Assembly (NCBI RefSeq): GCF_030538755.1
Contig: NZ_JAUNTJ010000019.1
Span: forward strand, 1-64,000
DNA length: 64,000 nucleotides
Origin: Paracoccus sp. (in: a-proteobacteria)
Lineage (GTDB): Bacteria; Pseudomonadota; Alphaproteobacteria; Rhodobacterales; Rhodobacteraceae
Reading direction: 5' to 3'
The translations under genes and the position numbers were made by a program. The notes beneath the pieces were generated by a model. The model saw only the letters and a program-made list of their open reading frames with translations. It made no database searches and was not told where the DNA came from. This document shows positions 323 to 15,592 of this stretch, piece by piece. Each line of letters starts with the position of its first letter. The stretch's first letter is position 1.

Positions 323-1219
323 TCAGCCCGCTTCCGGCTTGCCCATTCCACCGAAGGCTCCAAGAACCATATCGGCACGAGTGGCAAAGCTGTCTTCGCC
401 TGCGCTCATCTTCATATCGCCGATCCGTTGCTGCCAGTCCACCGTCGCCCGCGCCATCGCATCGGGCAGGCCCAGTTCAGTCAGCGTCGCCGCCACCTCG
501 CGCATCTCAGCCGCGCGGCGGCGACCGTGGACCATCATCCGCTCAAGATTATAGGCTGCCTGTCGGGGCCAGTCGATGTCGGGGTTCGAGGCTTGTAATG
601 AGGCCAGAACCGCCCCATCTACCCCCGCCCGCCGTGCCGCCAGCAGACATTCCGCGCTCAGCGCCTCCATCCCCTTTATCATCACCGAGCGGATCATCTT
701 GATCGACGAGGCATCCCCCACCTGCCCACCGGCAACCCCATAAGGCATATCGAGCGCGTCCAGCGCCGCCCCCGCCTGTGCGGTGTGAGGACCGGCGATC
801 AGCAGGGGCGTGCGGTGCAGTTTCGGATGCACTGGTGCCATGATCGCAAGATCGACATAGCGCCCGCCCGCACCCTCGATCACCGCCGCCGCGCGCCGCT
901 TGGCACCCGGCGAACAACTGTTGCCGTCAAACCAGAGCGCGCCAGGGGCAAGGTGCGGCGCTGCCTCGGTCGCGGCGCGTTCGGCGCAATCGGCAGTGAC
1001 GAGGCAGAACACCACCCCCGCGCCGCCAAGCGCGGCGGCCCGGTTATCGGCCAAGGCAACATCACAGCGCCCGGCCCGCATCCGAGGCAGCGCCACAGCC
1101 GCCGGATCGTCGCATTTCAGATCATAGGCCCGGACCTGACCTGCCGCTTGCCCCCAGCCGGTCGCAAAAGCCTCGGCCGCTTCGCCAAAGCCGATGAAGG
1201 CGATATCCGCTTGAGCCAT
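323..1219 (-). CDS. NAD(P)-dependent oxidoreductase, DUF1932 / 6PGDH-like
   Basis: A 298-residue protein opening with the nucleotide-binding signature IAFIGFGEAAEAFATG, a Rossmann GxGxxx motif typical of 6-phosphogluconate dehydrogenase and beta-hydroxyacid dehydrogenase relatives. The helical C-terminal half (from about residue 190, SSIKMIRSVMIKGMEAL) fits DUF1932. The start was placed at the ATG at 1217-1219 because a strong GGAGGAAT lies just upstream; an upstream extension in the same frame looks non-coding. It diverges from the FAD-linked oxidase at 1364 and shares a 144-bp promoter region with it. The substrate is unknown; an aromatic or lignin-type hydroxy acid is a guess from the neighbourhood. 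Confidence 0.8.
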   Translation of the reverse strand: MAQADIAFIGFGEAAEAFATGWGQAAGQVRAYDLKCDDPAAVALPRMRAGRCDVALADNRAAALGGAGVVFCLVTADCAERAATEAAPHLAPGALWFDGNSCSPGAKRRAAAVIEGAGGRYVDLAIMAPVHPKLHRTPLLIAGPHTAQAGAALDALDMPYGVAGGQVGDASSIKMIRSVMIKGMEALSAECLLAARRAGVDGAVLASLQASNPDIDWPRQAAYNLERMMVHGRRRAAEMREVAATLTELGLPDAMARATVDWQQRIGDMKMSAGEDSFATRADMVLGAFGGMGKPEAG

Positions 1220-1278
1220 GCCATTCCTCCTCCAGTTTCCGAAGGACTGACGGGCGGATGAATGAAAGACAACTGACA

Positions 1279-1295
1279 ATAGAACATTCTTATGC
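1279..1295 (+). promoter_or_regulatory. Putative LysR-type box 1 (ATAG-N7-TTATGC)
   Basis: ATAGAACATTCTTATGC. The symmetric ATA...TAT core is a T-N11-A motif, the usual signature of a LysR-family site. It starts 85 bp upstream of the ATG of the FAD-linked oxidase and is in the same orientation as that gene. The same ten fixed bases recur twice in the dctP-galB gap. Confidence 0.5.
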
Positions 1296-1363
1296 CCGCA
1301 CACATAGATCGAAATTGTGACCGCCGCCACTTTGGCCCAGCTATAGCGCAGCAGGAGGCACCA

Positions 1364-2752
1364 ATGACCGATCCTTTCATGGCATTGCTTGGCCCGTCAG
1401 GATGGCGCCCGGCAGGCTCGGACATGACGGGGTTCAGCCGCGACTGGCTGGACCGCTACGGCGACGCGCCCATAGGCATTGCCCTGCCCGCCTCGACCGC
1501 CGAGGTCGCGCAGGTGGTCGCGCTTTGCGCGGCGCAAAGGATCAGCGTCACGCCGCAGGGCGGCAATACCGGGCTGAACGGCGGCAGCGTCCTTTCACCC
1601 GGACAGCGTGGGATCATCCTGTCGCTGGCGCGCATGAACCGCGTCCATTCTATCGATCCGGTGGGCATGACCGTGACGGTCGATGCGGGCGTGGTTCTGC
1701 AAGCCCTGCATGACGCGGTTGCACCGCACGGGTTGATGTTTCCACTGCATCTCGGCTCGGAAGGCAGCGCACAGATCGGCGGGTTGATCGCGACCAACGC
1801 CGGAGGCAGCCTTGCGATGCGCTATGGCATGATGGACGCGCAGGTGTTGGGACTGGAGGCGGTTCTGCCCGATGGCCGGATCTGGGACGGGATGCGAGCG
1901 CTTATCAAGGACAATACCGGGCTGCAACTGCGCCGGCTGTTTTGCGGCGCAGAGGGCCGGCTGGGGGTCGTGACCCGCGCGATCCTGCGGCTGGAGCCTG
2001 CGCCCAAGGCTTTTGCGACCGCTCTGCTCGCGCTGTCTGATCTTGACGCCGCGCTGCATCTTGGTGCCCGCGCCCGCGCCGAGGCTGGCGACCGGCTGAT
2101 GGCGATGGAGTTTTTCAGCGAAACCGGTCTTGAGATGCTGCTTCATCATATGCCGCAGATGCTACGCCCGACAGAGGCGCACGGCCCGTTCTATGTGCTG
2201 CTCGAACTGGCCGCGCCGCGTGCTTCGGACAATCCCGGCGAGGTTCTGGAAGGGCTGCTCGAAACCGCGATCACGGCGGGCGAGGTGCTGGATGGCACCA
2301 TCGCCGCCTCTGGGGTGCAGCGCCGGGCCTTGTGGCAACTGCGCGAGGAAATCCCCGAAGGTCAGCGCCGCGAAGGCCCGCAGATCAAGCATGATGTTGC
2401 CGTGCCTGTAGCCAGCCTGACCAGCTTTATCGCCGCCGCACAGTCACGATTGGCGCGGATTCTGCCCGGAGTGCGGATCAATCCCTTTGGCCATCTGGGC
2501 GACGGCAACGTTCATCTGAACCTGTCGCCCCCCAAAGGGCGCGGCTTTGGCGGGACCGAGGCTGCGCTTTCTGCCGAGGTTTATGACCTTGCCACCGCGA
2601 TGGGCGGGACATTTTCGGCGGAACATGGCCTCGGGCAGACCAAGGTGGCGCTTGCCAACCGCCTGCGCAGCGAGACCGAGCGGCGACTGATGGCCGATCT
2701 GATCCATGCCGTCGATCCGGGCGGGGTGATGAATCCGGGCAAGCTGATCTAG
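1364..2752 (+). CDS. FAD-linked oxidase (GlcD / 2-hydroxyacid dehydrogenase type)
   Basis: A 462-residue flavoprotein of the FAD_binding_4 plus FAD-oxidase C-terminal family, the group that holds D-lactate, glycolate (GlcD) and D-2-hydroxyglutarate dehydrogenases. The FAD-binding loop PQGGNTGLNGGSV lies near residue 66. NPFGHLGDGNVHLNL near residue 370 and the terminal NPGKLI are hallmarks of the C-terminal domain. The ATG at 1364 follows GCAGGAGG. It likely oxidises a 2-hydroxyacid to a 2-oxoacid. It is first in a rightward series with the tctACB transporter, so it may act on the acid that transporter imports; the exact substrate cannot be read from the sequence. Confidence 0.85.
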   Translation: MTDPFMALLGPSGWRPAGSDMTGFSRDWLDRYGDAPIGIALPASTAEVAQVVALCAAQRISVTPQGGNTGLNGGSVLSPGQRGIILSLARMNRVHSIDPVGMTVTVDAGVVLQALHDAVAPHGLMFPLHLGSEGSAQIGGLIATNAGGSLAMRYGMMDAQVLGLEAVLPDGRIWDGMRALIKDNTGLQLRRLFCGAEGRLGVVTRAILRLEPAPKAFATALLALSDLDAALHLGARARAEAGDRLMAMEFFSETGLEMLLHHMPQMLRPTEAHGPFYVLLELAAPRASDNPGEVLEGLLETAITAGEVLDGTIAASGVQRRALWQLREEIPEGQRREGPQIKHDVAVPVASLTSFIAAAQSRLARILPGVRINPFGHLGDGNVHLNLSPPKGRGFGGTEAALSAEVYDLATAMGGTFSAEHGLGQTKVALANRLRSETERRLMADLIHAVDPGGVMNPGKLI

Positions 2753-2768: not shown

Positions 2769-2783
2769 ATAGCACCAGCTTAT
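2769..2783 (+). promoter_or_regulatory. Putative LysR-type box 2 (ATAG-N7-TTAT)
   Basis: ATAGCACCAGCTTAT, 124 bp upstream of the tctA start and in the same orientation. It shares the eight core bases and spacing of the other three boxes but lacks the trailing GC. It lies in the 140-bp gap between the FAD oxidase and tctA, so tctA may have its own promoter. Confidence 0.4.
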
Positions 2784-2892: not shown

Positions 2893-4386
2893 ATGGACAG
2901 CATCTATCAATCGCTCGGAGTGATCTTCAGCCTGTCGGGCATTGCGATACTGCTGATCGGCGCACTATTGGGAATCATGGTCGGTGCGCTGCCGGGCCTT
3001 GGCCCCTCTATCGGGCTGAGCCTGCTTATCCCCTTCACCTATGGCATGTCTCCCGAACTTAGCATGCTACTGATGATTTCGCTTTATATCTCGGCAGAAT
3101 ATGGAGGGTCCATCAGCGCGATTCTGTTATCGACACCGGGCACGGCAGCGGCGGCGGCAACGGCCATCGACGGCTATGCGATGGCGCAAAAGGGGCGTGC
3201 AAATGAGGCGATTTCAATTTCATTGACGGCCTCGACCATCGGCGGGGTGCTGGGCGGGCTGGCCCTGCTGTTTCTTACCATGCCGCTGGCGAAACTTGCG
3301 CTGCAATTTGGCCCGGCCGGATATTTTGCCGTAGGACTGTTCGGGCTCAGCTCGGTCGCGGCATTATCGGGCGGATCGCTGGTCAAGGGCCTGTTGGGGG
3401 CAGCTTTGGGGTTGGCGCTGGCAACGGTGGGGATCGACCCGATCGCTGGCACGCCACGCTTTACCTTTGGCCATTTCGAACTCTATGAAGGGGTGCCCTT
3501 TCTCGCCGCGCTGATTGGCCTTTTCGCGGTATCCGAGGCGATTGCCCTTGCCGAAAAACATGCAGGTGCAGCCCCCGCGGTCAAGGCACGGGTTGGTCAC
3601 GTGTTCATGTCTCTGGCGCTGTGGCGGGAAACCTGGCGGGCGATGATCTCGGGTTCGGTGATCGGCACGATCCTGGGGATTCTGCCGGGTGTTGGCGGTA
3701 ATATCGCCTGCTGGGTTGCACGTGATTATGCCCGCAGCCGCGACCCCAAACCACAAGACTATGGCCACGGTGCGGCAAACGGCATCGCCGCACCCGAAGC
3801 TTCGAACAACGCCACGGTGGGCGGTGCCCTTGTGCCGATGCTTGCGCTTGGGGTGCCCGGATCACCCACCACGGCGATCATGATGGGCGCACTGATTATG
3901 CACGGCCTGCATCCGGGACCACAGCTTTTCACCGAAGCGCCCAGCCTCGTCTATGCAATCCTGTTTGGCGTCATTATCGCCTCTGTCGTGCAATATCTGG
4001 TCGGATCATTGTTTCTGCCGATATTGGCGCGCACGGTGCTGCTGCCCGATGGCGTCATCGCCGCCGGGATCATGGCCTTTGCCATGCTGGGCGCTTTCGC
4101 CATTCGCAACCTGATGTTCGACGTCTGGATAACGCTGGGCTTTGGAATTCTGGGTTACGCCATGAAAAAGCTGAATTTTCCGGTCGCACCGGTCATTTTG
4201 GCAATGGTCCTCGGGTATCTGATCGAATCGAATTATCGCACCGCACTGGTGTCATCACGGGGCGATTATGCGGTGTTTTTCACCGATCCGATCAGCCTGC
4301 TGTTTCTGACACTCAGCCTGATCAGCATCCTGATCCCGGTGTGGCGGGCGTGGCAAGGCCGCCGCGTCAAATCGCCAGCCGCGTAA
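2893..4386 (+). CDS. tctA: Tripartite tricarboxylate transporter, large membrane subunit TctA
   Basis: A 497-residue polytopic membrane protein with about twelve hydrophobic segments. The family signature near the N-terminus, GALPGLGPSIGLSLLIPF, and a second GILPGVGGNIACWVARDYA copy near residue 258 are typical of TctA (DUF112). It forms the channel of a TTT carrier that works with a periplasmic binding protein (TctC) and a small membrane subunit (TctB), driven by an ion gradient. Both partners follow at once. TTT systems move citrate-like di- and tricarboxylates and also aromatic acids such as terephthalate, so an aromatic or oxo-acid substrate fits the island. Order here is A-C-B. Confidence 0.93.
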   Translation: MDSIYQSLGVIFSLSGIAILLIGALLGIMVGALPGLGPSIGLSLLIPFTYGMSPELSMLLMISLYISAEYGGSISAILLSTPGTAAAAATAIDGYAMAQKGRANEAISISLTASTIGGVLGGLALLFLTMPLAKLALQFGPAGYFAVGLFGLSSVAALSGGSLVKGLLGAALGLALATVGIDPIAGTPRFTFGHFELYEGVPFLAALIGLFAVSEAIALAEKHAGAAPAVKARVGHVFMSLALWRETWRAMISGSVIGTILGILPGVGGNIACWVARDYARSRDPKPQDYGHGAANGIAAPEASNNATVGGALVPMLALGVPGSPTTAIMMGALIMHGLHPGPQLFTEAPSLVYAILFGVIIASVVQYLVGSLFLPILARTVLLPDGVIAAGIMAFAMLGAFAIRNLMFDVWITLGFGILGYAMKKLNFPVAPVILAMVLGYLIESNYRTALVSSRGDYAVFFTDPISLLFLTLSLISILIPVWRAWQGRRVKSPAA

Positions 4387-4411: not shown

Positions 4412-5419
4412 ATGAAAGCCACAAAAAAGGCAGCCCCGGCAATCCGTCGTCTGATCGCTCTGTTTCGGACGACTTTTGCGGCACTTGCCCTGTCGGCCTT
4501 GCCGATAGCCCAGCCGCAATCCGCAGCAGCCGACGACTTTCCCCAAAAGACGGTCACGCTGGTCGTCTGGTCGGGTGCCGGCGGGGCGCTTGACACCTAT
4601 GGTCGCAAACTGGCCGAACTGCTGGAGAAAGAGGCCGGCTGGACCGTCAAGGTCGATAACCGCTCGGGTGGCAGCGGCGCGGTCGGGCTGTCGCAGATTA
4701 TGACGCAGCCCGCCGATGGCCATAGCATTCTGGTGCTGACCGGCACATTGACCTTTGGCATCGCACAGGGGTTGATCCCCTTCCAGCTTGAGGATCTGCG
4801 CCTGCTGCGGGCGATGCAGTCCGAACCTTCATCTTTGGCGGTTCTGAAGGACAGCCCGTTTCAGAATGTGCAGCAACTCGTCGATCATATGAAGGCAAAT
4901 CCCAACGGGCTGAAAATCGGCGGCCATTCTTCGGGCGGGTTTCACCAATATATGCTTTATCAACTGATGAAGCAGACCGGCTTTGAAAGCGGCTGGATTC
5001 CGCATGATGCCTCGGGCAAGGTGACGCTGGCCCTGCTTGGCCACCATATCGACGCCGCAATGATGACGCCCTCGACCGGGTTGTCGCAGGTCAAAAACGG
5101 CGACATCCGCCTGCTGGGTATCACCACCGCTGAACGCTCGCCGTTTTTGCCCGAGGCTCCGACATTCGATGAACAGGGCCTGACCCTTGAAGGGGCGATC
5201 TGGCGCGGGGTCGCGGTCAAGGCCGGAACGCCTGATGATGTTGTGGCCACGATTCAGACTGCAATCGACAAGGTGACGGCCTCTGACGATTGGAAAGCCT
5301 TCCAGCAGGAACAGTTTCAGGACAGCCCAGACTGGAACGAGGCCGAATTCACCGAGCGCACACGTAAGGATCTGGAAGAACAGCGCGAATTTCTGGAAGC
5401 CACCGGGTTCATCAAATGA
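4412..5419 (+). CDS. tctC: TTT solute-binding protein TctC (Bug family)
   Basis: A 335-residue periplasmic binding protein with a long N-terminal signal (basic residues, then LFRTTFAALALSALPIAQ, cleavage likely near SAAA-DD). The mature part begins FPQKTVTLVVWSGAGGALDT, the usual start of Bug/TctC receptors that bind carboxylates. The ATG follows AGGGAGGAA. It lies 25 bp after tctA and overlaps tctB by 4 bp, so the three subunits are translated together. The family has many paralogues with different ligands; none can be assigned here. Confidence 0.9.
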   Translation: MKATKKAAPAIRRLIALFRTTFAALALSALPIAQPQSAAADDFPQKTVTLVVWSGAGGALDTYGRKLAELLEKEAGWTVKVDNRSGGSGAVGLSQIMTQPADGHSILVLTGTLTFGIAQGLIPFQLEDLRLLRAMQSEPSSLAVLKDSPFQNVQQLVDHMKANPNGLKIGGHSSGGFHQYMLYQLMKQTGFESGWIPHDASGKVTLALLGHHIDAAMMTPSTGLSQVKNGDIRLLGITTAERSPFLPEAPTFDEQGLTLEGAIWRGVAVKAGTPDDVVATIQTAIDKVTASDDWKAFQQEQFQDSPDWNEAEFTERTRKDLEEQREFLEATGFIK

Positions 5420-5886
5420 GCCAATATGACACGCCCCTGACTGGCCGACGCATCCCGGCCAGCGAGGTTATCGCTGCGCTGGCCTGTCTGGCGGCAAGCG
5501 CGGGGTTTCTGGTGCTGGCATCGAACCTGCCGGAAAGCGTGTCCACCGGCGATGTCGGGCCGGGAGCCTTGCCCAGACAGGTGGGGGTGTTCGGGCTGAT
5601 CTGTTCGCTGGCCTATCTGGTCATGACCCTGCGCAAAGCATTTCCGGCACAACCGAGCCGTTTTGCTGGGGTGTTATATGCCTTGGCCAGCTTCTTGATC
5701 GGCGTGGTGGCTGTCGTGGCCGTCCCATGGCTGTCACTTGCGGTATCGCTGGCGCTATGTTCCGGCATGCAGACTTTGCTGTTTCCGGGGCGGCACCGTT
5801 GGTTGCGGGCCGGGGCTACGGCGCTTGGCATGTGGCTGATCGCGACATTGCTGTTTCAGCGCCTGCTGGGACTTCCACTGCCCTAG
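5416..5886 (+). CDS. tctB: TTT small membrane subunit TctB
   Basis: A 156-residue protein with four predicted membrane segments, starting at the ATGA overlap with tctC. Size, topology and the phrase VSTGDVGPGALPRQVG after the first helix (the PR-like loop of TctB) match the small subunit of tripartite tricarboxylate transporters. Sequence conservation in this subunit is always low, so the call leans on topology and position. It completes the tctA-tctC-tctB carrier and is followed 111 bp later by the LysR regulator. Confidence 0.85.
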   Translation: MSQYDTPLTGRRIPASEVIAALACLAASAGFLVLASNLPESVSTGDVGPGALPRQVGVFGLICSLAYLVMTLRKAFPAQPSRFAGVLYALASFLIGVVAVVAVPWLSLAVSLALCSGMQTLLFPGRHRWLRAGATALGMWLIATLLFQRLLGLPLP

Positions 5887-5997
5887 CCGGTAAAGCAGTG
5901 GGGCGGCTTGCCAGGATGGTTTGACCCCACCCCTCGTTTCCCGCCATGCTGCGGGGCGACGATTGAGACGCCCCCCGCAAAAAGATTGGAGAGGGAC

Positions 5998-7170
5998 ATG
6001 CTGGCAAATCTGCGACATCTGCGTATGTTCAGGCAGGTGGCCGAGACAGGCTCGGTGACCGAGGCTGCCTTGGCCTGCCATGTCTCGCAGCCCGCCGTCA
6101 CGCAGGCCATGGGCAAGATCGAGGAAATTCTGGGCGCCGATCTGTTTCAGCGTCGCCCGCAGGGGCTGTTTCTGACCGATGCCGGACGGGTGCTGGCGCA
6201 TCGGGTCAGCCGGGCGTTTCTGCGGCTGGATGGCGCAATGGCCGATATGGCGCGCGAAATTCGGGTGCAGGCAAGCTGGTCGCAGCTTCGCGCCCTGATC
6301 GCGGTCACGGATATGGAGAATTTCACCCTTGCCGCGCGCAGGCTGGGTCTGGCGCAGCCGACCGTTCACCGGGCGATCACCGCGCTGGAGGCTGCCGCTG
6401 GCACCCGGTTTTTCCAGCGCACCGCCCATGGGCTGATCGCCACCCGTGCCGCGCGGGGGCTTGCGCAGGCGGCGCGGTTGGCGCTGGCGGAACTCGATCA
6501 GGCCCGCGCCGATCTGGCCGAACTCTCGGGGCGCGAGGTCGGGCGCATCGTCATCGGCAGCCTGCCGCTGTCCCGGTCAAACCTGTTGCCCGAAGCCCTG
6601 CTCGAATTTCGCAAACAGCGCCCCAGCCTGCCGGTCGAGGTGATCGACGGACGTTATGACGAAATGCTGACCGGCCTGCGCCGGGGCGATATCGACATGG
6701 TTCTGGGCGCACTACGCATGCCTGCACCGATTGACGATGTGGATCAGAAGATGCTTTTTCACGACAGCGTGGTGATCGTCGCGGGGGCCGGGCATCCGCT
6801 GGCCGGGCGGCGCGACCTGACCCGCACCGATCTGCTGGCCTATCCTTGGGTGATGGCCCGGCAGGGCACGCCAATCCGCGCACAGCTTGACGATTTTCTG
6901 GCGGGTGAAGCACCTGCAAGCGTGGTCGAGACCTCATCGGTGATCCTGATGCGCGAATTGCTGATCGGCAGCGATCATCTGGGCGCGCTGTCGCGGATGC
7001 AGGCGCAGACCACGGCCGAGGCACAGGCGCTGCGTATCCTGCCGGTTGCCCTGCCGGGGTCAGACCGACCGATTGGCCTTACCACCCGAACCGATTGGGA
7101 ACCGACCATCGCCCAGCGGGAGTTACGCGACATCCTGATCAGGTTGGGGGAAAGCCTGCGCCAAACCTGA
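5998..7170 (+). CDS. LysR-family regulator with two tandem HTH modules
   Basis: A 390-residue regulator, about 90 residues longer than a normal LysR protein. The first winged-helix module is at residues 3-64 (LRMFRQVAETGSVTEAA, VSQPAVTQAMGKIEE). A second lies at about 95-155 (LRALIAVTDMENFTLAARRL, AQPTVHRAITALEAA, with FFQRT). The effector domain begins near GREVGRIVIGSLPLSRSNLL (residue 178). The start at 5998 has GAGAGGG just upstream; the open frame before it is not protein-like. It sits between the TTT operon and the TRAP operon and is the only regulator in the island, so it is the likely reader of the ATAG-N7-TTAT boxes. The inducer is unknown. Confidence 0.9.
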   Translation: MLANLRHLRMFRQVAETGSVTEAALACHVSQPAVTQAMGKIEEILGADLFQRRPQGLFLTDAGRVLAHRVSRAFLRLDGAMADMAREIRVQASWSQLRALIAVTDMENFTLAARRLGLAQPTVHRAITALEAAAGTRFFQRTAHGLIATRAARGLAQAARLALAELDQARADLAELSGREVGRIVIGSLPLSRSNLLPEALLEFRKQRPSLPVEVIDGRYDEMLTGLRRGDIDMVLGALRMPAPIDDVDQKMLFHDSVVIVAGAGHPLAGRRDLTRTDLLAYPWVMARQGTPIRAQLDDFLAGEAPASVVETSSVILMRELLIGSDHLGALSRMQAQTTAEAQALRILPVALPGSDRPIGLTTRTDWEPTIAQRELRDILIRLGESLRQT

Positions 7171-7194: not shown

Positions 7195-8502
7195 TCAGCC
7201 GAACATCGAGTTCGGAATCCAGGTCGCGATGCCGGGGATCAGGATTATCAGCACCAACCCGACGATCATCGCGAACAGGAACGGTGCTACCCCCCGGAAC
7301 ACGGTCGTCAGCGGCACCTCGGCACCCGCAACCGAGCGCACGACAAAGACATTCAGCCCGACCGGCGGGGTAATCATCCCCATCTCGATCACGATCACCG
7401 CAACAACGCCGAACCAGATCGGATCGAAACCAAGCGCAGTGATGACCGGGAACACGATCGGAATCGACAGCACCAGCATCGACAGTCCATCCATGAACAT
7501 GCCCATCACCACATAGGCCAGAATGATGACGAACAGCGTTCCATAGGCCCCCAGCCCCAGCGATTGCAGCCCATCGCCCAGCATGGCGGGGATCTGCGTG
7601 ACCGCAAAGAACGGGTTCAGCACATGGGCACCGATCACGATCATATAAAGCATGGCCGAGGTTTTCAGCGTATCCTGCACCGCCTCGCGGAAGCTGACCC
7701 AGCTTAGCCGGCGGCCAAGGATGGCGAAAAGGATGACCAGCGCTGCGCCGATGCCCGAGGCCTCGACCGGGGTGAAGACGCCGATATAGATGCCGCCGAT
7801 GGTCAGCACCATCACCCCAAGCAGCGGCGCAGCATGGGCCAGCGCCACGAACCGTTCGCGCAGCGGCAGATCGGGACCCGCGGGGGCCTTGGACGGGTGG
7901 CGGGCCGCGACGATCCATACTGTTGCCACAAACAGCACCATCAACAGCAGCCCCGGCAGTATCCCTGCCATGAACAGTCGCCCGATGGATTGCTCGGTCA
8001 GGATCGCATACAGCACAAAGCCGGTCGAGGGCGGGATCAGAAAGCCAAGCGTGCCGCCTGCCGCGACCGAGCCGGTGGCCAGCCCGTCAGCATAGCCCTG
8101 ACGCTTCATCTCGGGCAGGGCGACCTTGCCGATGGTGACGGCGGTGGCGACCGATGACCCCGAGACTGCCGAAAACGCCGCGCAGCCCAGAACCGAGGCG
8201 CTGGCCAGCCCACCCCGGAAATGCCCGACCCATGCAAAGGCCGCGTCATACAGCCCGCGCGAAAATCCGGCGACCGAGGCTATATTGCCCAGCAAAACGA
8301 ACATCGGCACGACGATCAGTGTCTCTGACGCGACCGAGCCATAGCTTTCGGTCAGCAGCAGCGCACCTGCCGCGCGGAATCCTTCAAGCGCCCACATGCC
8401 GAAAAACCCCGCCAGCAGCATCGCAAAAGCGACCGGCGTGCGGAAAATCATCAGGAAGAACAGGCCGAAAATACCCAGAAGGCCGATGGTTGCGCTGCTC
8501 AT
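7195..8502 (-). CDS. dctM: TRAP transporter large permease DctM
   Basis: A 435-residue membrane protein with about twelve hydrophobic segments and the DctM layout. Signatures include FLMIFRTPVAFAMLLAGF near the N-terminus, GSSVATAVTIGKVALPEM near residue 115 and ITPPVGLNVFVVRSVAG near residue 380. It is the ion-coupled channel of a tripartite ATP-independent periplasmic transporter. It overlaps dctQ by 4 bp and closes a dctP-dctQ-dctM operon. The operon diverges from galB and shares regulatory sites with it, so import of the aromatic acid freed by the neighbouring tannase-like enzyme is a reasonable inference. Confidence 0.93.
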   Translation of the reverse strand: MSSATIGLLGIFGLFFLMIFRTPVAFAMLLAGFFGMWALEGFRAAGALLLTESYGSVASETLIVVPMFVLLGNIASVAGFSRGLYDAAFAWVGHFRGGLASASVLGCAAFSAVSGSSVATAVTIGKVALPEMKRQGYADGLATGSVAAGGTLGFLIPPSTGFVLYAILTEQSIGRLFMAGILPGLLLMVLFVATVWIVAARHPSKAPAGPDLPLRERFVALAHAAPLLGVMVLTIGGIYIGVFTPVEASGIGAALVILFAILGRRLSWVSFREAVQDTLKTSAMLYMIVIGAHVLNPFFAVTQIPAMLGDGLQSLGLGAYGTLFVIILAYVVMGMFMDGLSMLVLSIPIVFPVITALGFDPIWFGVVAVIVIEMGMITPPVGLNVFVVRSVAGAEVPLTTVFRGVAPFLFAMIVGLVLIILIPGIATWIPNSMFG

Positions 8503-9017
8503 TCCAGCCCCTCCGGGTAATGCTCATCATGCAGCAGTTCAAAGATCTGCACAGCAAAAATCACGACGCACAGCGCCATGCCAAGGGCCAGCACCGCATA
8601 GCCGGGCCACAGCGGCAGTGCCAGCATGTTGGTGGTATCGCCATATTCCCAGGCGTCCAGCGCCTTCAGCACCGCGCGCCAGACCAGCACCGCCAGCACG
8701 CCCCCGGACAGCAGCCGCGACAACAGATCGCCGGCCAGCCGCCCCCAAGGCCCGATGGCGTTGTCGAACACATCGACACCGACATGGCCGTTACGTTCGG
8801 TGCAATAGGGCAGCGCCGCCATGACCAGCGCAACGGCGGTCAACTGGTTGATTTCATTCAGCCCCAGAACCGGCGCCGAAAAGACATAGCGCAGGATTAC
8901 CCCCGCGCTGACGCTTAGCACCATGAACAGCAGCGCAGCGGCAGCCAGCACTGCCAGCCATGCCGTCGCCCGGTCAAGAAAACTCGACCGGGTCCAGGTT
9001 GCCAGATGGCGCATCAT
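8499..9017 (-). CDS. dctQ: TRAP transporter small permease DctQ
   Basis: A 172-residue protein with four membrane helices. The region FSAPVLGLNEINQLTAVALV and the following GHVGVDVF match the conserved core of DctQ (the E-x-x-Q patch and the H-V-x-V-D loop). It starts one base after the dctP stop and overlaps dctM by 4 bp, so all three TRAP subunits are translationally coupled. Its role is to bind the large permease and complete the membrane unit. Confidence 0.9.
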   Translation of the reverse strand: MMRHLATWTRSSFLDRATAWLAVLAAAALLFMVLSVSAGVILRYVFSAPVLGLNEINQLTAVALVMAALPYCTERNGHVGVDVFDNAIGPWGRLAGDLLSRLLSGGVLAVLVWRAVLKALDAWEYGDTTNMLALPLWPGYAVLALGMALCVVIFAVQIFELLHDEHYPEGLE

Positions 9018-9018
9018 C

Positions 9019-9990
9019 TCAGTCAGCCCTCAGCGCATCGGCCACCGCCTGCGCGCCGCGCGTTTCAGCAACGACCTTTTCCACCATGGTCAGAGCGGCG
9101 GCGTTAAAAGGCGCGGCCTCATCCTCGGTCAGGGTGATGACCTCTTTGCCCGCGGTTGCGCCGAAATCGGCCAGACCCTGTTCGGCAACACTGATCTGCA
9201 CCTTTTGCCCGTCAAGCGACAATTGCCGCCCCGCCGCGTCGATGGCGGCCTTTTCCGCGTCGCTCAGCCCGTTATAGGCATCACGATTCATCACCACGAA
9301 AAACGGCGAGTTGGTGGTGTCCATCCCGCGGGTGATGTAATTCGCAACCTCGCCCAGACGAAAGGCGTTGATGCCGGTGCCGTCGATCATTGCGGCGTCG
9401 ATCACCCCGGTTTGCATGGCATTGTAAATCTCGCTCACCGGCATCGAAACCGGTGTGGCGCCCCATGCCTCGACCAGCAGGCCGGTGTTGCGCGACGGCA
9501 CCCGCACCTTCAGTCCGCGAATGTCGTCAAGCGTGCGCACCGGCTTGTTGCGGGTGAACAGCAGGTTTTCTGCGCTCGACCACAGGCCGATCAGTTGCAC
9601 CCGGCGGTATTCCGGGGCCAGCACCTCGATATGCGACCAAAGTGTTTCGGTGCCGGTGGCTTCGTCCAGCATACCGGGCAGTTCCGCCGTCAGCGTCAGC
9701 GGGAATTGCGAGGCAGTATAGCCCGGCAGCGACACCGCCAGTTCCGCCACACCATCAACGACACGGCCGTATTGTTCGACCGGACCCGCACCCAATTCGC
9801 CGCCATGATAAATCCGGATGTTCAGCGCCCCGCCGGTGCTGTCCGCGACGGCTTGGGCGAACGGCTCGAATGCGCCGCTGGCATAGGGGTGGGTGGGGGC
9901 CATAAAGCTGGCGAATTTCAGATCCTTGGCCTCGGCGACCGAGGCCAGCAGAACCAGTGCAAGCGATGTGGCTTTCAGGGTGATGTTCAT
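9019..9990 (-). CDS. dctP: TRAP solute-binding protein DctP
   Basis: A 323-residue periplasmic receptor. The signal peptide ends near ALVLLASVAEA-KDLKF. The mature protein has the DctP fold markers: FASFMAPTHPYASGAFEPFA at the start, then GLKVRVPSRNTGLLVEAWGA with the conserved arginine that usually clamps a ligand carboxylate, and AMQTGVIDAAMIDG. It leads the leftward TRAP operon. Promoter sites lie in the 242-bp gap it shares with galB. The retained arginine fits a carboxylate ligand, and gallate is plausible from context but unproven. Confidence 0.9.
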   Translation of the reverse strand: MNITLKATSLALVLLASVAEAKDLKFASFMAPTHPYASGAFEPFAQAVADSTGGALNIRIYHGGELGAGPVEQYGRVVDGVAELAVSLPGYTASQFPLTLTAELPGMLDEATGTETLWSHIEVLAPEYRRVQLIGLWSSAENLLFTRNKPVRTLDDIRGLKVRVPSRNTGLLVEAWGATPVSMPVSEIYNAMQTGVIDAAMIDGTGINAFRLGEVANYITRGMDTTNSPFFVVMNRDAYNGLSDAEKAAIDAAGRQLSLDGQKVQISVAEQGLADFGATAGKEVITLTEDEAAPFNAAALTMVEKVVAETRGAQAVADALRAD

Positions 9991-10077: not shown

Positions 10078-10094
10078 GCATAAGTTTTCGCTAT
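10078..10094 (-). promoter_or_regulatory. Putative LysR-type box 3, facing dctP
   Basis: On the minus strand this reads ATAGCGAAAACTTATGC. It matches box 4 on the opposite strand at 15 of 17 positions, making a long inverted repeat with a 47-bp spacer. It begins 104 bp upstream of the dctP start, in the dctP orientation. Confidence 0.5.
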
Positions 10095-10124: not shown

Positions 10125-10143
10125 ATGGCAAGAGAATTGCCAT
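10125..10143. promoter_or_regulatory. Perfect 7-5-7 palindrome in the dctP-galB gap
   Basis: ATGGCAA-gagaa-TTGCCAT is a perfect inverted repeat with a 5-bp spacer. It lies between boxes 3 and 4 and overlaps box 4 by two bases. Size and symmetry suit a dimeric regulator, but no second regulator gene is present in the island. It lies about 90 bp before galB. Confidence 0.45.
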
Positions 10144-10158
10144 AGCAAAAATTTATGC
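10142..10158 (+). promoter_or_regulatory. Putative LysR-type box 4, facing galB
   Basis: ATAGCAAAAATTTATGC, beginning 91 bp upstream of the galB start and in the galB orientation. It carries the full ATAG-N7-TTATGC pattern with a T-N11-A core. It mirrors box 3, so each divergent operon has its own copy in the same relative orientation. Confidence 0.55.
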
Positions 10159-10232
10159 AAAGCCACGTAGTTCCGATTTGTCGCCCCGCCGCCCCCGCGA
10201 CATCCTGTACGCAACAATTCCCGGAGGAACCC

Positions 10233-10964
10233 ATGTCGAAGAAATCCGCCCTCGTCATCTCTGCCCATGCCGCCGATTTCGTCTGGCGCTGTGGCGGGGC
10301 CATCGCGCTGCATGCCGAAAAAGGCTATGACGTCACCGTCGTTTGCCTGTCCTTCGGCGAACGCGGCGAAAGTGCGAAGCTGTGGAAAGATCCGGGCATG
10401 ACGCTGGAGCAGGTCAAATCCGCCCGTCGCGCCGAATCGGAAAAGGCGGCGGCGGCGCTTGGTGTGCATGATCTGATCGAATTCGACCTGGGCGACTATC
10501 CCCTGCACCTGACGCAGGACGACAAGTTCCGGCTGGTCGATGTGATCCGCAAGGTGCAGCCCGCCTTTATGTTAAGCCACAGCCAGTATGACCCCTATAA
10601 CACCGACCACATGTATGCGACGCAGATCGCACTGGAATGCCGGATGATTGCGCAGGCATGGGGCCATAATCCCGGTGAAAAAGTGCTGGGTGCGCCACAG
10701 CTTTACCTGTTCGAGCCGCATCAGACCGAGCAGATGGGGTGGAAACCGGATACCTTCCTCGACATCACCCCGGTCTGGGACAAGAAGCGTGCCGCGATCG
10801 AGTGCATGGCGGGGCAGGAACATCTGTGGGACTATTACACCCGCGTCGCCGAGAACCGCGCCAACCACTTCATGCGCAATTCGGGTGGCCAGTCGGGCGG
10901 GCGCAAGGCGCGTTATGCCGAGGGCTTCCAGTCGATTTTCCCCCGCACCGTGGATGAGCTGTGA
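10233..10964 (+). CDS. galB: 4-oxalomesaconate hydratase GalB (PIG-L fold)
   Basis: A 243-residue member of the PIG-L / LmbE fold. Deacetylases of this fold carry PHPDDE; here the motif is SAHAADFVWRCGGAIALHAE, keeping the metal-binding His and first Asp but not the second acidic pair. This is the form I know from the Pseudomonas putida gallate-pathway hydratase GalB, a zinc enzyme that adds water to 4-oxalomesaconate and gives 4-carboxy-4-hydroxy-2-oxoadipate. SHSQYDPYNTDHMYAT near residue 115 supplies further ligands. The ATG at 10233 follows CCGGAGGAA. galC and galD later in the same operon handle the adjoining steps, which makes the call firm for the family and strong for the reaction. 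Confidence 0.85.
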   Translation: MSKKSALVISAHAADFVWRCGGAIALHAEKGYDVTVVCLSFGERGESAKLWKDPGMTLEQVKSARRAESEKAAAALGVHDLIEFDLGDYPLHLTQDDKFRLVDVIRKVQPAFMLSHSQYDPYNTDHMYATQIALECRMIAQAWGHNPGEKVLGAPQLYLFEPHQTEQMGWKPDTFLDITPVWDKKRAAIECMAGQEHLWDYYTRVAENRANHFMRNSGGQSGGRKARYAEGFQSIFPRTVDEL

Positions 10965-11938
10965 TGACCAATCCTACCAACCCCGCAGGCGATCTTGCCC
11001 ATCTTGCCCATGTCGAGATGCTGACCGACAAGTTCGAGGAAAGCCTTGATTTCTTTACCCGCGTCTATGGGCTGAAACTGTCCGGGCTGGATGGCGACAG
11101 CGCATATCTGCGCGCATGGGACGATTACGAATATTGCTCGCTCAAGCTGACGCGGGCGGATCGGACCGGCGTCGGCCATATCGCCTATCGCGCCGCCTCG
11201 CCCGAGGCGCTGGAACGGCGCGTCAAGGTAATCGAGGCATCGGGCTATAAGGTCATCGGCTGGGTTGAGGGCGATCAAAGTCATGGCCGCGCCTTCCGCT
11301 TTGAAGACCCTTTCGGCCATGTCTTTGAGATCTATTACGACACCATCTGGTATGAACCGCAGGACAAGGCCGAACGCGCGGCGCTGAAAAACACCGCCAG
11401 CGCCTTTACCGGGGCGGCGCCGCGCCGGCTCGATCACCTGAACCTGCTGGCCTCGGATGTGACCGAGTTCCGCCGTTTCATGGAAACCTGTCTGGGCAGC
11501 CGGGTAACGGAATATATCCAGCTTGATAACGGTCGTCTGGGCGGCTGCTGGTTTACCGTCAATAACAAGACCTATGATCTTGCCTGCACCGAGGAACATG
11601 GCGGCGGCATGGGGCGGCTGCATCACGTCACCTATGCCACCGATCAGCGCGAGGACATTCTGCGCGCCGCCGACATCTTTTTGCAAAACGGCGTTCATAT
11701 CGAAACGGGGCCGCATAAGCACGCGATTCAGGGGACGTTTTTCCTCTATGTCTGGGAACCCGCCGGGAACCGGGTCGAGTTGGCCAATGCGGGCGCGCGG
11801 CTGATCCTCGCCCCCGACTGGAAGCCGGTGGAATGGACGCAGGCCGACCGGATGAAGGGGCAGGCATGGGGTCTGAAAACCATCGAATCCTTCCACACCC
11901 ACGGCACCCCGCCGGTGAAACCGGACGTCGCACACTGA
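10964..11938 (+). CDS. Type I (VOC) extradiol ring-cleavage dioxygenase
   Basis: A 324-residue protein of two vicinal-oxygen-chelate repeats, like catechol 2,3-dioxygenase. The iron-binding facial triad is visible as His158 (LDHLNLL), His221 (RLHHVTYA) and Glu272 (NRVELAN). Their spacing of 63 and 51 residues is close to that of XylE as I recall it (153, 214, 265). The ATG overlaps the galB stop by one base. It should open an aromatic diol with O2. Because the downstream products are handled by GalB, GalC and GalD, the natural guess is gallate, or a close relative, giving 4-oxalomesaconate. Known gallate dioxygenases are type II (LigB-like), so this would be an unusual solution. The family is sure; the substrate is inference. 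Confidence 0.8.
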   Translation: MTNPTNPAGDLAHLAHVEMLTDKFEESLDFFTRVYGLKLSGLDGDSAYLRAWDDYEYCSLKLTRADRTGVGHIAYRAASPEALERRVKVIEASGYKVIGWVEGDQSHGRAFRFEDPFGHVFEIYYDTIWYEPQDKAERAALKNTASAFTGAAPRRLDHLNLLASDVTEFRRFMETCLGSRVTEYIQLDNGRLGGCWFTVNNKTYDLACTEEHGGGMGRLHHVTYATDQREDILRAADIFLQNGVHIETGPHKHAIQGTFFLYVWEPAGNRVELANAGARLILAPDWKPVEWTQADRMKGQAWGLKTIESFHTHGTPPVKPDVAH

Positions 11939-11940
11939 GC

Positions 11941-11976
11941 ATGCGCGCCCGCCCGGAGGAGAGGGCGGGCGCGCAT
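11941..11976 (+). other. Strong intercistronic hairpin before the tannase gene
   Basis: ATGCGCGCCCGCCC (11941-11954) and GGGCGGGCGCGCAT (11963-11976) form a perfect 14-bp GC-rich stem with an 8-nt loop. It lies 2 bp after the dioxygenase stop and 61 bp before the esterase start. With no T-run it is more likely an RNA-stability or partial-termination element than a full terminator. Confidence 0.6.
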
Positions 11977-12037
11977 CATGATCGACATGATGATGTCGGA
12001 ACCCTGCCAGAACAGGCCATCCAATGAGGAGGAATTA

Positions 12038-13774
12038 ATGCTCACACGAACCAGAACCCGCACCCTTGCCGCGCTGCTGACATCTGCGTCGCTGACGCTG
12101 CTTGCCGGTATCGCCGCTGCGCAGGGTGTCTATGACGATGTGCTGCAATTCGACGGCGGAGCCTATACCACGCTGACCGTCAGCGTGGATGGCGTGGAAA
12201 CGGCCGTACGCCGTTATGAGGTGGTTTACACCGGCAACCCGGTCGAGGTGGATCAAACACAGCGTTTCGGCGGAGAACCGACACCGCTGGACGATCAGTT
12301 GGCCACGCAGAAGATGATTATCTATGTTCCCGAAACGGCTGTGGGCAACGACGATGCCGCCGTCATTATGCAGGTCAGTAATGGCGGCTGGTTCGTCAGC
12401 CCGGTGCAGGAACGGGTGACGGACGGGGCGTCCTATTCCAGCGCCAGCGACACCGATGCCATCGGCAAGGCCCTGTCCGAGGGCTATGTGATTGCTTCTG
12501 TGGGCACGCGCAGCCGCGGTGCGATTGCGTCCGATGGCAGCTATGTCGGCAAGGCACCCGCGCCTGTGGTCGATGCCAAGGCGGCGATCCGCTATCTGAA
12601 ACTGAACGATGCGGTTATTCCGGGGTCGGCCGACCGTATCGTCATCACTGGCACCTCGGGCGGGGGCGGCCTGTCGGCGGCGGTCGCGGCCAGCGGCAAC
12701 AGCGCGGAATTCAACGCTCTGCTGGCTGAAATCGGCGCAGCAGGCATTGATGCACAGGGCAATTCCACCCTGAGCGATGACGTTTTCGCTACCATCGCCT
12801 ATGTGCCGATCACCGATCTGGGCAATGCCGATCTGGTCTATGAATGGCAATACAACGGCGTGCGCACGGCGGATAACACGGCTGGAGGAGCTTATAGCGA
12901 CGCGGCGCAGGCAGTTTCGGCCGAACTGGCCTCGCGCTATCCGGCCTATCTGGAAAGTCTGGGGATCACCCTGCCTGACGGCACACCCCTGACAGCAGAA
13001 ACGATGGACGACGCCATCGTGACTGAAATCAAACGCGAAACCCGGAAATATATCGAAAATGGCGGCGCAATTCCGGCCTTGGGCGAAAGCTTTTCGCTGA
13101 CCATTCGCGGCAATCAGGTTGAGGTTCAGAACGACTGGCTGTCCGTCGAGAACGATGAAATCGCGGTCGATTACGACAAGTTTCTGAGCTTTGTCGCCGG
13201 GACCACTGCGCTGAAGGCGATCCCGGCTTTTGACGCCACGGCCACCACCGGCCGCACTGGCGTCAATGGTGAAAATACGTTGTTCGGAACTGCGGATCAG
13301 TTTTACGCCAATTTCACCGAGTACGGCTGGAACAATAACGAAGTTCTGGGCGATGGGACGGGGCTGGACGACACGGGCCTGATTTGGGCGGAATATATTG
13401 CCTTGGGCGGGTCCATCATCGGCGATCAGTTGCGGCTGATTGATCCATTCGTATTTATCGGCACCGATGCGGACACCGCCCCTTTTTGGTATGTCCGCCA
13501 CGGCATGATCGACCGCGACACGGCTTTTGCGGTCAATCTTTCACTCTATCACGCTTTGCTGAACGACGCGTCGGTTCAGGACGTCAATTTCGAACTTGCC
13601 TTGCTGACCGGCCATACGGGCAATTATGACGTGCAAGAGGCTTATAGCTGGCTGGCCAGCAGTCTGGCGTCGGTCGATATCGCGCCGGTTCCGGTTCCTG
13701 CGGGTCTGCCGCTGATGCTGGGCGGCTTGGGTATATTGGGCCTGCTGAAGCGGCGCAAACAACGCCGGATATAA
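12038..13774 (+). CDS. Secreted, surface-anchored tannase-like esterase
   Basis: A 578-residue alpha/beta hydrolase matching bacterial tannases of the Lactobacillus TanLp type. Its signal peptide is LLTSASLTLLAGIAAAQG. The nucleophile is Ser207 in VITGTSGGGGLSAAV. RHGMIDRDTAF (Asp492/Asp494) and LLTGHTGNYD (His526) match the conserved acid and histidine regions; the Asp494-His526 gap of 32 equals the TanLp gap as I recall it (419/451). The last 28 residues, VPVPAGLPLMLGGLGILGLL plus a basic tail, look like the VPLPA-CTERM sorting tag of Rhodobacterales. The start has a strong GAGGAGGAA. It would cleave galloyl esters outside the cell, feeding the gallate genes around it. Another ester substrate is possible. 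Confidence 0.72.
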   Translation: MLTRTRTRTLAALLTSASLTLLAGIAAAQGVYDDVLQFDGGAYTTLTVSVDGVETAVRRYEVVYTGNPVEVDQTQRFGGEPTPLDDQLATQKMIIYVPETAVGNDDAAVIMQVSNGGWFVSPVQERVTDGASYSSASDTDAIGKALSEGYVIASVGTRSRGAIASDGSYVGKAPAPVVDAKAAIRYLKLNDAVIPGSADRIVITGTSGGGGLSAAVAASGNSAEFNALLAEIGAAGIDAQGNSTLSDDVFATIAYVPITDLGNADLVYEWQYNGVRTADNTAGGAYSDAAQAVSAELASRYPAYLESLGITLPDGTPLTAETMDDAIVTEIKRETRKYIENGGAIPALGESFSLTIRGNQVEVQNDWLSVENDEIAVDYDKFLSFVAGTTALKAIPAFDATATTGRTGVNGENTLFGTADQFYANFTEYGWNNNEVLGDGTGLDDTGLIWAEYIALGGSIIGDQLRLIDPFVFIGTDADTAPFWYVRHGMIDRDTAFAVNLSLYHALLNDASVQDVNFELALLTGHTGNYDVQEAYSWLASSLASVDIAPVPVPAGLPLMLGGLGILGLLKRRKQRRI

Positions 13775-13796
13775 CGCCACAGCCCCACCCGGCGGC

Positions 13797-13814
13797 GTGT
13801 CCGGGCGGGGACAC
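13797..13814 (+). other. Small hairpin after the tannase gene
   Basis: GTGTCC-gggcgg-GGACAC lies 22 bp after the esterase stop and 26 bp before galC. With the 14-bp hairpin at 11941 it brackets the esterase cistron, a layout that could set its mRNA level apart from its neighbours. Confidence 0.35.
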
Positions 13815-13840
13815 CAACAAAGAGAAAGCGGATAGGAACC

Positions 13841-14512
13841 ATGACTAAAGTCGTTCAAAACATCCAGCGCGCCAGCACCGGGACGATCAACGCACTGGCC
13901 GAAGCCGGTGTCGCTACCGTGCATGAGGCCCAGGGCCGCATCGGCTGCCTGGCCAGTTACATGCGCCCGATCTGGCCCGGTGCCCGCATCGCCGGATCGG
14001 CCGTCACGATCAGTGCGGCGCCCGGTGATAACTGGATGGTTCATGTCGCCATCGAGCAGTTGCAGGCGGGCGACATTCTGGTCCTCGCCCCCACCAGCCC
14101 TTGCGACAATGGCTATTTCGGCGATCTGCTGGCGACCAGTGCCATGGCGCGCGGCTGCCGGGGGTTGGTCATCGACGCGGGTGTGCGCGACGTGCGCGAT
14201 CTGGCTGAGATGGGCTTTCCCGTCTGGTCCAAGGCGGTCAGCGCGCAGGGCACGGTCAAGGAAACGCTGGGATCGGTCAACGTGCCCATCGTCTGCGCCG
14301 GGCAGGCAATCAACGCGGGCGATGTGATTGTCGCCGATGACGATGGCGTCTGTGTGGTCCGGCGCGAGGATGCGGATACCGTCCTTGCCGCAGCCCAAAA
14401 GCGTCTGGCGGCCGAGGAAGCCAAGCGGCAGCGCCTCGCCTCGGGTGAGCTTGGCCTTGATATATACGACATGCGTCCACGGCTGGCGGCCAAGGGCCTG
14501 AAATATGTCTGA
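13841..14512 (+). CDS. galC: 4-carboxy-4-hydroxy-2-oxoadipate aldolase / oxaloacetate decarboxylase
   Basis: A 223-residue member of the RraA-like fold. The metal- and substrate-binding stretch [14 protein letters not shown] holds the Arg-Asp pair used by the class II pyruvate aldolases LigK, ProA and Gal[21 protein letters not shown] and the preceding lid are also typical. The enzyme splits 4-carboxy-4-hydroxy-2-oxoadipate into pyruvate and oxaloacetate and can decarboxylate oxaloacetate. It is 67 bp after the esterase gene and 22 bp before galD. RraA-fold proteins include RNase E regulators, but the setting between galB and galD makes the aldolase reading far more likely. Confidence 0.85.
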
Positions 14513-14533
14513 ACCGGCATTGCGGAGGAATAA

Positions 14534-15592
14534 ATGAACGGTATCAGGTGCTTATGGATGCGTGGCGGCACCTCGAAAGGGGTGTATCTGCTGGCCGGGG
14601 ATCTGCCCAAGGACGAGGCCGCACGCGACGCGCTGCTGCTGTCACTGATGGGCAGCCCTGATCCGCGCCAGATCGACGGCATCGGTGGGGGCGATCCGCT
14701 GACCTCGAAAGTCGCGATCCTGTCGCCGCCCTCGCGTCCTGATGCGGATGTAGATTACCTGTTCTTGCAAGTCTATGTCGATCAGGCGCTGGTGTCCGGT
14801 GCGCAGGGTTGCGGCAATATTCTGGCGGGCGTCGGCCCCGCCGCGATCGAGCGCGGTCTGGTCGCCACGCGAGACGGCGAAACCCCGGTCCGCATCCACA
14901 TGCTGAACACGGGTGAGATTGCGACCGCGGCGGTTCAGACCCCCGGCGGGCATGTCACCTATGCCGGCGAGGCCGCCATCGACGGTGTTCCCGGCACCGC
15001 CGCCCCCGTGCCGCTGATGTTCGAAAATATCGCAGGCTCGATGTGCGGGGCGCTGCTTCCCTCGGGTCAGGCGGTCGATGTGATCGACGGGGTGGACTGC
15101 ACGCTGATCGACAACGGGATGCCAATCGTGGTCATGCGCGCCAGCGATTTCGGCCTGAGCGGGCAGGAAAGCCGCGACGATCTGGATGCCGACACTGCCC
15201 TGAAAGCGCGGTTGGAGGCGATCCGTCTGCAAGCCGGACCGCTGATGAATCTGGGCGATGTAACCGAAAAATCGGTGCCGAAGATGACGCTGGTATCGGC
15301 GCCCTCGCCGGGCGGTACGATCAACACCCGCAGTTTCATCCCGCATCGTTGCCACGCCAGCATTGGCGTGTTCGCCGCCGTCAGCACCGCCACCGCCTGC
15401 ACCATGCCCGGCACCCCCGCCGCCGCTTTGGCCGAATTGCCCATCGACGGCCGGTTCCAGATCCAGCACCCCACCGGCAGCGCCGAGGTGCTGATCCGCA
15501 TGGATGACAGCGGCGCGGTTGTGGGTGCAGGCAGCCTGCGCACCGCGCGCAAGTTGATGGATGGGCTGGTTTTCCCGCGAACGGAGGGCTGA
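14534..15592 (+). CDS. galD: 4-oxalomesaconate tautomerase GalD (PrpF family)
   Basis: A 352-residue PrpF-family isomerase. The N-terminal CLWMRGGTSKGVYLL, the DGIGGGDPLTSKVAIL stretch and GAQGCGNILAGVGPAAIE (with the active-site Cys) are diagnostic of the fold. PrpF itself isomerises aconitates, but the GalD branch converts the keto form of 4-oxalomesaconate to the enol form that GalB accepts. Company with galB and galC selects that function. The ATG at 14534 is preceded by GCGGAGGAA. It is the last gene of the rightward gal operon and is followed by paired palindromes. Confidence 0.85.
   Translation: MNGIRCLWMRGGTSKGVYLLAGDLPKDEAARDALLLSLMGSPDPRQIDGIGGGDPLTSKVAILSPPSRPDADVDYLFLQVYVDQALVSGAQGCGNILAGVGPAAIERGLVATRDGETPVRIHMLNTGEIATAAVQTPGGHVTYAGEAAIDGVPGTAAPVPLMFENIAGSMCGALLPSGQAVDVIDGVDCTLIDNGMPIVVMRASDFGLSGQESRDDLDADTALKARLEAIRLQAGPLMNLGDVTEKSVPKMTLVSAPSPGGTINTRSFIPHRCHASIGVFAAVSTATACTMPGTPAAALAELPIDGRFQIQHPTGSAEVLIRMDDSGAVVGAGSLRTARKLMDGLVFPRTEG

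Follow-up and report, generated by a model that had tools for sequence, protein, structure and literature searches.

Gallate is the ring acid that yields 4-oxalomesaconate (OMA) in a single cleavage (PMC12314914). In Pseudomonas putida KT2440, the gal genes (galTAP, galBCD, and the gene for the regulator GalR) provide a major facilitator superfamily transporter, GalT, a porin, GalP, the type II, LigB-domain dioxygenase GalA, and the GalB, GalC, and GalD steps, with a LysR-type gene beside galB (PMC9942251, PMC12314914). Gallate clusters have also been described in the alphaproteobacteria SYK-6 and N. aromaticivorans (PMC9942251), and DesB of SYK-6 is type II as well (PMC3962378). A plasmid of Pseudomonas oryzihabitans carries a similar gal set with a LysR-type regulator that has tandem helix–turn–helix (HTH) domains. 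Here we describe a related locus in Paracoccus sp., located on the first 64,000 nucleotides of contig NZ_JAUNTJ010000019.1 (assembly GCF_030538755.1), a stretch that we call the window. The core of this locus is a five-gene operon encoding GalB, GalC, GalD, a ring-cleavage dioxygenase, and a tannase.

Compared with P. putida, this operon retains the GalB, GalC, and GalD steps and departs from the described arrangement in three respects. The ring-cleaving enzyme is a type I protein of the vicinal oxygen chelate (VOC) fold rather than a type II LigB-domain protein such as GalA or DesB; the transporters are of the tripartite ATP-independent periplasmic (TRAP) and tripartite tricarboxylate (Tct) types in place of GalT and GalP; and a tannase, not mentioned for the P. 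putida gal genes in the excerpts available, lies within the operon. We consider it likely that the cluster is an island leading from tannins to the tricarboxylic acid cycle, with a type I VOC enzyme as its gallate dioxygenase. The original prediction, made from the sequence letters, had named five same-direction genes in this interval and five enzyme families; the open reading frames are located as it described, and every family assignment held, through curated models for the tannase, GalC, and GalD, a solved structure for GalB, and VOC domains for the dioxygenase. The operon consists of the following:

10233..10964, forward strand: galB, 4-oxalomesaconate hydratase of PIG-L fold (PIG-L domain; solved GalB 5cgz)
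10964..11938, forward strand: type I (VOC) extradiol dioxygenase, proposed gallate dioxygenase (two-domain glyoxalase/extradiol dioxygenase family matches)
12038..13774, forward strand: subtype B tannase, secreted, predicted to be surface-anchored (NF041556 above cut-off)
13688..13759, forward strand: VPLPA-CTERM sorting tail of the tannase (TIGR03370)
13841..14512, forward strand: galC, 4-carboxy-4-hydroxy-2-oxoadipate (CHA) aldolase of RraA fold (TIGR02798; PDB 3noj)
14534..15592, forward strand: galD, OMA tautomerase of PrpF fold (NF033377; PDB 6p3j)

The dioxygenase ATG overlaps the galB stop codon, with an in-frame GTG also available at 10961, and the tannase start at 12038 is preceded by AGGAGG, a further in-frame ATG lying upstream at 11978. 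At 11941-11976, between these two genes, two perfectly matching inverted arms of 14 bp flank a loop of 8 bases; this repeat may mark a junction, or else act on the mRNA as a stabilizer or attenuator.

The lower gallate pathway is represented by one gene per step. The best PDB match of the galB product is the solved 4-oxalomesaconate hydratase 5cgz (E 1.3e-96), which carries the assignment, the curated GalB model being absent from the set used. The galC product scores 374.9 bits against TIGR02798 (cut-off 304.5) and the galD product 514.3 bits against NF033377 (cut-off 440), with 3noj and 6p3j, respectively, as their best PDB matches. GalD, GalB, and GalC would together convert OMA to pyruvate and oxaloacetate. 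The genome holds a second protein above the OMA tautomerase cut-off (L106; C29, 4470-5570), which resides inside a tricarballylate TcuA/TcuB cluster; NF033377 probably over-calls this function.

The identity of the ring-cleaving enzyme is the crux of the locus. No match to PF02900, the LigB domain, was found in the genome, which is 86.8% complete, and genes like the one in the operon are publicly annotated as VOC family protein, catechol 2,3-dioxygenase, or bphC. Numbered from the GTG at 10961, the 2-His-1-Glu metal ligands H159, H222, and E273 are kept in 81 of 81 dioxygenase sequences. In all 81, too, the position of the catalytic histidine (H200 of homoprotocatechuate 2,3-dioxygenase, HPCD; H194 of BphC) is occupied by a tyrosine, Tyr205. 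To our knowledge, this histidine has been thought essential in both types of extradiol dioxygenase. Within a type I comparison set comprising catechol 2,3-dioxygenase, homoprotocatechuate 2,3-dioxygenase, and AphC/3lm4, HPCD provides the reference for active-site roles, which are assigned to His200, Arg243, and Arg293. In the window enzyme, Tyr205 replaces the first of these, Thr249 and Gly300 replace the two arginines, and Lys203 and Arg297 are new. We refer to K203, Y205, and R297 as the K-Y-R signature. Tyr205 would stand in for the usual catalytic histidine, with Lys203 and Arg297 as candidates for binding the substrate carboxylate. The closest solved sequence, PDB 9wgj (354.5 bits; deposited as a catechol 1,2-dioxygenase), has the same Lys, Tyr, and Arg in the alignment and differs in having Leu at position 249.

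The signature travels with gallate-pathway genes. Among 80 dioxygenase loci, the best 80 of 589 relatives, 68 have galB, galC, and galD together no more than 4 kb from the dioxygenase gene and in the same orientation; homologues of the tandem-HTH LysR occur within that distance in 60 and of a DUF1932 dehydrogenase in 40. The galB-VOC-galC-galD arrangement is far beyond chance, and the operon recurs widely in alphaproteobacteria; where gene order differs (L111, L113, L121, and L124), the association of the VOC and gal genes is kept. A chosen sample of 117 relatives, made up of the 80 loci together with plasmid and further genome loci and containing at least one duplicate (L168 = L034), shows a sharp boundary. 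All 111 members at 52% identity or more carry K-Y-R, and at least two of galB, galC, and galD lie within 8 kb in 92 of them. The six below 52% have His at position 205, and neither the signature nor gal genes were seen in any of the six. Because members include Pantoea, Thermus oshimai, and Nonomuraea, the K-Y-R clade is not limited to alphaproteobacteria.

Genome counts give a coarser view. The VOC gene is present in 38 of 199 family genomes, 18 of 125 genus genomes (two weak or partial), and 21 of 348 genomes of a phylum sample. In a table compiled by hand, GalD is present in 36 of the 38 VOC-gene genomes versus 60 of 161 others (Fisher p 3e-11), an association that is a rough guide only, because NF033377 over-calls, as the copy in the TcuA/TcuB cluster illustrates. 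Viewed from galD, 114 over-cut-off genes were compared with 38 VOC genes, from a set of 40 that included two paralogues at 40% identity, and with 26 of the LigB genes: within 12 kb, VOC only was found for 25, LigB only for 13, both for 1, and neither for 75, the LigB side being a lower bound.

Which ring acid does the VOC enzyme open? Alphaproteobacterial protocatechuate 4,5-cleavage clusters provide an instructive comparison, as three of them (L114, L115, and L148) share galB, galC, and galD with the window at 61-78% identity, and L115 also has DUF1932 and LysR genes. They differ in possessing LigA/LigB and LigC- and LigI-type genes; homologues of LigA, LigB, LigC, and LigI were all absent from the 64-kb window. 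The LigAB-linked galBCD clusters L114, L115, L148, and L150 carry LigC- and LigI-type genes, as expected where OMA is derived from protocatechuate via 2-pyrone-4,6-dicarboxylate (PDC). The LigC and LigI queries were named from family (GFO/IDH and amidohydrolase, respectively) and context, and passed no equivalog cut-off. In the neighborhood of the dioxygenase, a LigC homologue was found in none of the 80 loci, none of the 111 relatives, and not in the window, no genome-wide LigC search having been made. As VOC operons lack LigC, OMA should form directly. Among the 80 loci, a LigI homologue occurs at more than 60% identity in three (L002, L047, and L048) and at 26% in L063, and a LigB-like one at 29-33% in one (L006). 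The genome itself yielded no LigI homologue, a weak negative since the search had no positive control. The Lig-type protocatechuate 4,5 route was considered as the path of the operon and rejected on the LigC count and the four absences from the window. Taken together, the genes, motifs, and neighborhood make gallate the likeliest substrate, and we propose that the type I VOC enzyme opens its ring straight to OMA, in the role of the unrelated type II GalA/DesB.

Several observations weigh against this assignment. The dioxygenase passes no equivalog cut-off, and its nearest model is that of catechol 2,3-dioxygenase (TIGR03211, 293.7 bits, cut-off 320.2); it also scores below the cut-off of HpaD homoprotocatechuate 2,3-dioxygenase (TIGR02295, 194.9 bits, cut-off 321.4). 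Its predicted structure reaches only a modest mean pLDDT of 67.7 and is weak near the active site. In 12 of the 80 loci, galB, galC, and galD are not all present within 4 kb, 7 of these loci having none of the three genes, and VOC-gal operons are mostly without a tannase. Nine of the 111 relatives have a LigI-type gene no more than 8 kb away, one of these genes being just 26% identical. Further exceptions, at 60-62% identity to the window enzyme, are a K-Y-R enzyme of Roseomonas (L120) that has LigAB and LigI-type genes as neighbors and no galBCD; one on a Thermus oshimai plasmid (L151; 61%) with PobA, an aldehyde dehydrogenase, galB, galC, and DUF1932, possibly a type I protocatechuate 4,5-pathway; four loci (L157, L158, L159, and L165) where LigI-type and gal genes occur together beside the K-Y-R enzyme; five (L160-L164) with no gal gene for about 9 kb on either side; and L153, where LigAB and the VOC gene share one locus. 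Some members of the K-Y-R clade may thus act on protocatechuate or 3-O-methylgallate.

The first of these substrates supplies the stronger alternative, in which the VOC protein acts as a type I protocatechuate 4,5-dioxygenase whose semialdehyde product is oxidized, perhaps by the DUF1932 dehydrogenase, before entering the GalD-GalB-GalC steps, gallate being incidental. The Thermus cluster and the presence of DUF1932 at half of the 80 loci speak for it. However, LigC is missing from all 80 and from the window; DUF1932 also stands beside a LigC-type gene in L115, so that it is no simple LigC substitute; and a tannase, which would release gallate, lies inside the operon. We regard this alternative as unlikely. 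The DUF1932/6PGDH-like dehydrogenase is found with galBCD not only in VOC clusters but also in a LigAB cluster, and its range extends to other phyla (L087, L115, L119, L121, L124, and L151).

More doubtful again is that the enzyme acts mainly on 3-O-methylgallate, or on rings derived from syringate, and that its product, PDC or a methyl ester, then leads to OMA. GalA of P. putida accepts 3-O-methylgallate too (PMC12481942), and the LigI-type genes near the 9 relatives, together with a methionine-synthase-like gene in the Pantoea cluster, could be accommodated by such a route. It would sit poorly with the absence of LigI from the window and the negative, uncontrolled search of the genome, and no O-demethylase was recognized among the scanned genes at 323-22580.

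If gallate is the substrate, the tannase would be its source. The original prediction had put the esterase in question by asking whether it groups with tannases, and it does so: it scores 371.1 bits against the subtype B model NF041556 (cut-off 300), and its six best PDB sequence matches are tannases or a tannase-like hydrolase. In the Lactobacillus enzyme, the catalytic triad is Ser163-Asp419-His451, and the galloyl group is contacted by Lys343, Glu357, and Asp421 (PMC4233993). Alignment to 4j0g shows the triad kept in the window tannase as S208, D493, and H527, and the contact residues as K394, E413, and D495 (numbering of the frame from 12035). The esterase is predicted to hydrolyze galloyl esters. 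That it is instead a general feruloyl or aryl esterase, sitting in a gallate operon by chance, seems very improbable, for although feruloyl esterases (BD-FAE) share the alpha/beta-hydrolase fold and PF07519, the family of tannases in related operons, spans tannases and feruloyl esterases alike, NF041556 is passed and all three galloyl-contact residues are kept.

In two respects, the window tannase differs from its Lactobacillus plantarum counterpart, TanLp, which shares the triad and galloyl-binding residues: it sits in a gallate-degradation operon, and it bears a sorting tail. Its N-terminus has a signal-like stretch by eye, and residues 552-575 of 579 match VPLPA-CTERM (TIGR03370, 27.3 bits, near the cut-off of 25.35). 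XrtD, the exosortase that pairs with this type of tail, is encoded elsewhere in the genome (L081; TIGR04152, 660.1 bits, cut-off 400). Sorting that depends on XrtD probably keeps the tannase on the outside of the cell, where it would cut galloyl esters. By eye, such a tail was seen at none of seven other subtype B tannase ends (L013, L083, L084, L085, L086, L109, and L110; L117 outside the set).

Tannases of this kind are rare, occurring above the NF041556 cut-off in 3 of 199 family genomes, at E up to 1e-20 in 2 of 125 genus genomes, and at E up to 1e-30 in 1 of 385 class-sample genomes, the last being the genome analyzed here. In L013 and L109, a subtype B tannase gene is situated between galB and the VOC gene; L006 has one nearby that contains an in-frame stop. 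PF07519 tannases are found between galC and galD (L009 and L015), after galD (L001, L003, and a walnut Agrobacterium plasmid, L124), and after galC (L067). Two unrelated tannase families, subtype B and PF07519, have joined the VOC-gal operon. Tannases in G021 and G296 are not beside a gal operon, and those on the Shinella, Agrobacterium MWF001, Acidovorax, and Streptomyces plasmids have no gal gene within 8 kb. On the Acidovorax plasmid, a porin gene and a TRAP operon accompany the related tannase. On Agrobacterium conjugative plasmids, the operon is followed by the PF07519 tannase (walnut) or by a carboxylesterase and several alpha/beta hydrolases (grapevine, L152).

The functional unit probably extends well beyond the five enzymes. 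The original prediction had its span right for the five genes and too short for the cluster, which reaches upstream to about 323 and adds the LysR, TRAP, Tct, and DUF1932 genes, giving a unit from about 323 to 15592:

323..1330, reverse strand: DUF1932 / 6PGDH-like NAD-binding dehydrogenase (PF09130 73.6 bits; PF03446)
1292..2752, forward strand: GlcD-like FAD-linked oxidase, pathway membership uncertain (PF01565, PF02913; under the glcD cut-off)
2769..2783, forward strand: predicted operator ATAGC-N6-TTAT, 110 bases before tctA (pattern match)
2893..4386, forward strand: TctA, tripartite tricarboxylate transporter (PF01970 480 bits)
4412..5419, forward strand: TctC, binding protein (PF03401)
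5416..5886, forward strand: TctB, small transporter subunit (PF07331 52.7 bits)
5908..7170, forward strand: LysR-type regulator, two HTH domains, GalR-like, putative TTG start (PF00126 in two stretches; PF03466)
7195..8502, reverse strand: DctM, TRAP large permease (PF06808; TIGR00786 above cut-off)
8499..9017, reverse strand: DctQ, TRAP small permease (PF04290)
9019..9990, reverse strand: DctP, TRAP binding protein (PF03480; NF037995 above cut-off)
10080..10094, reverse strand: predicted operator copy facing the TRAP operon (pattern match)
10142..10156, forward strand: predicted operator copy facing galB, 91 bases before the galB ATG (pattern match)

The TRAP operon is divergent from galB, with 9991-10232 between them, and the TRAP system, perhaps also the Tct system, would take up gallate. 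A control region common to both operons had been anticipated, and it indeed contains conserved copies of the predicted operator facing both sides. The pattern ATAGC-N6-TTAT, drawn from these two outward-facing sites and trimmed after relatives were viewed, occurs three times in the 64-kb window versus 0.06 expected; the third site, before tctA, was not used in drawing it. Of 70 loci, 60 have the exact core in the 350 bases preceding galB, versus 33 occurrences elsewhere in 1.32 Mb of those loci, or about 0.009 expected per 350 bases; a longer form with at most three mismatches is present in 51 of 70 galB upstreams versus 0.2 in shuffles.

The tandem-HTH LysR at 5908-7170 likely reads this operator, and such a GalR-like protein would control galB, the TRAP operon, and tctA through one site. 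Its two HTH_1 stretches recur in relatives from Rhizobium SL42 and P. oryzihabitans. It is 35% identical to the tandem-HTH LysR of P. oryzihabitans, which is divergent from galB; in the window, the TRAP operon separates the two genes. In P. oryzihabitans, the interval from galR to galB showed no such operator. For GalR of P. putida, the effector is OMA (PMC9942251). Sigma-70 and terminator scans yielded no more than shuffles, and no Rfam match was found in 1-24000. Adjoining the operon on the reverse strand, 15770-22580 is a LacI-regulated sugar locus with a tagatose kinase above cut-off, a GatZ/KbaZ-type subunit, and a ribose-type ABC transporter.

How novel is this arrangement? The original prediction knew of no alphaproteobacterial operon with this make-up. 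That claim survives for the type I dioxygenase replacing GalA/DesB, and needs tempering elsewhere, as galB-VOC-galC-galD recurs widely and the gallate clusters of SYK-6 and N. aromaticivorans are on record. Our literature search, whose coverage ended short of the Rhodococcus opacus gallate pathway, turned up neither a type I gallate dioxygenase nor an exosortase-anchored tannase; within 7 kb of the gal cluster on an R. opacus plasmid, there is no VOC homologue of this kind. On the sequence evidence, the chemistry would be that of known gallate degradation, and what is new is the non-homologous ring-cleaving enzyme together with the predicted surface-sorted tannase.

We see even chances for a broader proposal, namely, that many alphaproteobacteria, and some bacteria outside that class, rely mainly on the widespread and so far unnamed K-Y-R clade for gallate ring cleavage. 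The clade would have evolved independently of GalA/DesB, would use a tyrosine, perhaps aided by the third hydroxyl of gallate, for the catalytic histidine, and would be coupled in this lineage to the first exosortase-anchored tannase. If so, many genomes with a "VOC family protein" or "catechol 2,3-dioxygenase" beside galBCD would be those of hidden gallate degraders, and surveys that rely on GalA/DesB only would undercount gallate and tannin turnover. The natural substitution of Tyr for the catalytic His would offer a direct test of extradiol cleavage of a ring with a third hydroxyl, and the sorted tannase would represent a surface enzyme for hydrolyzable tannins.

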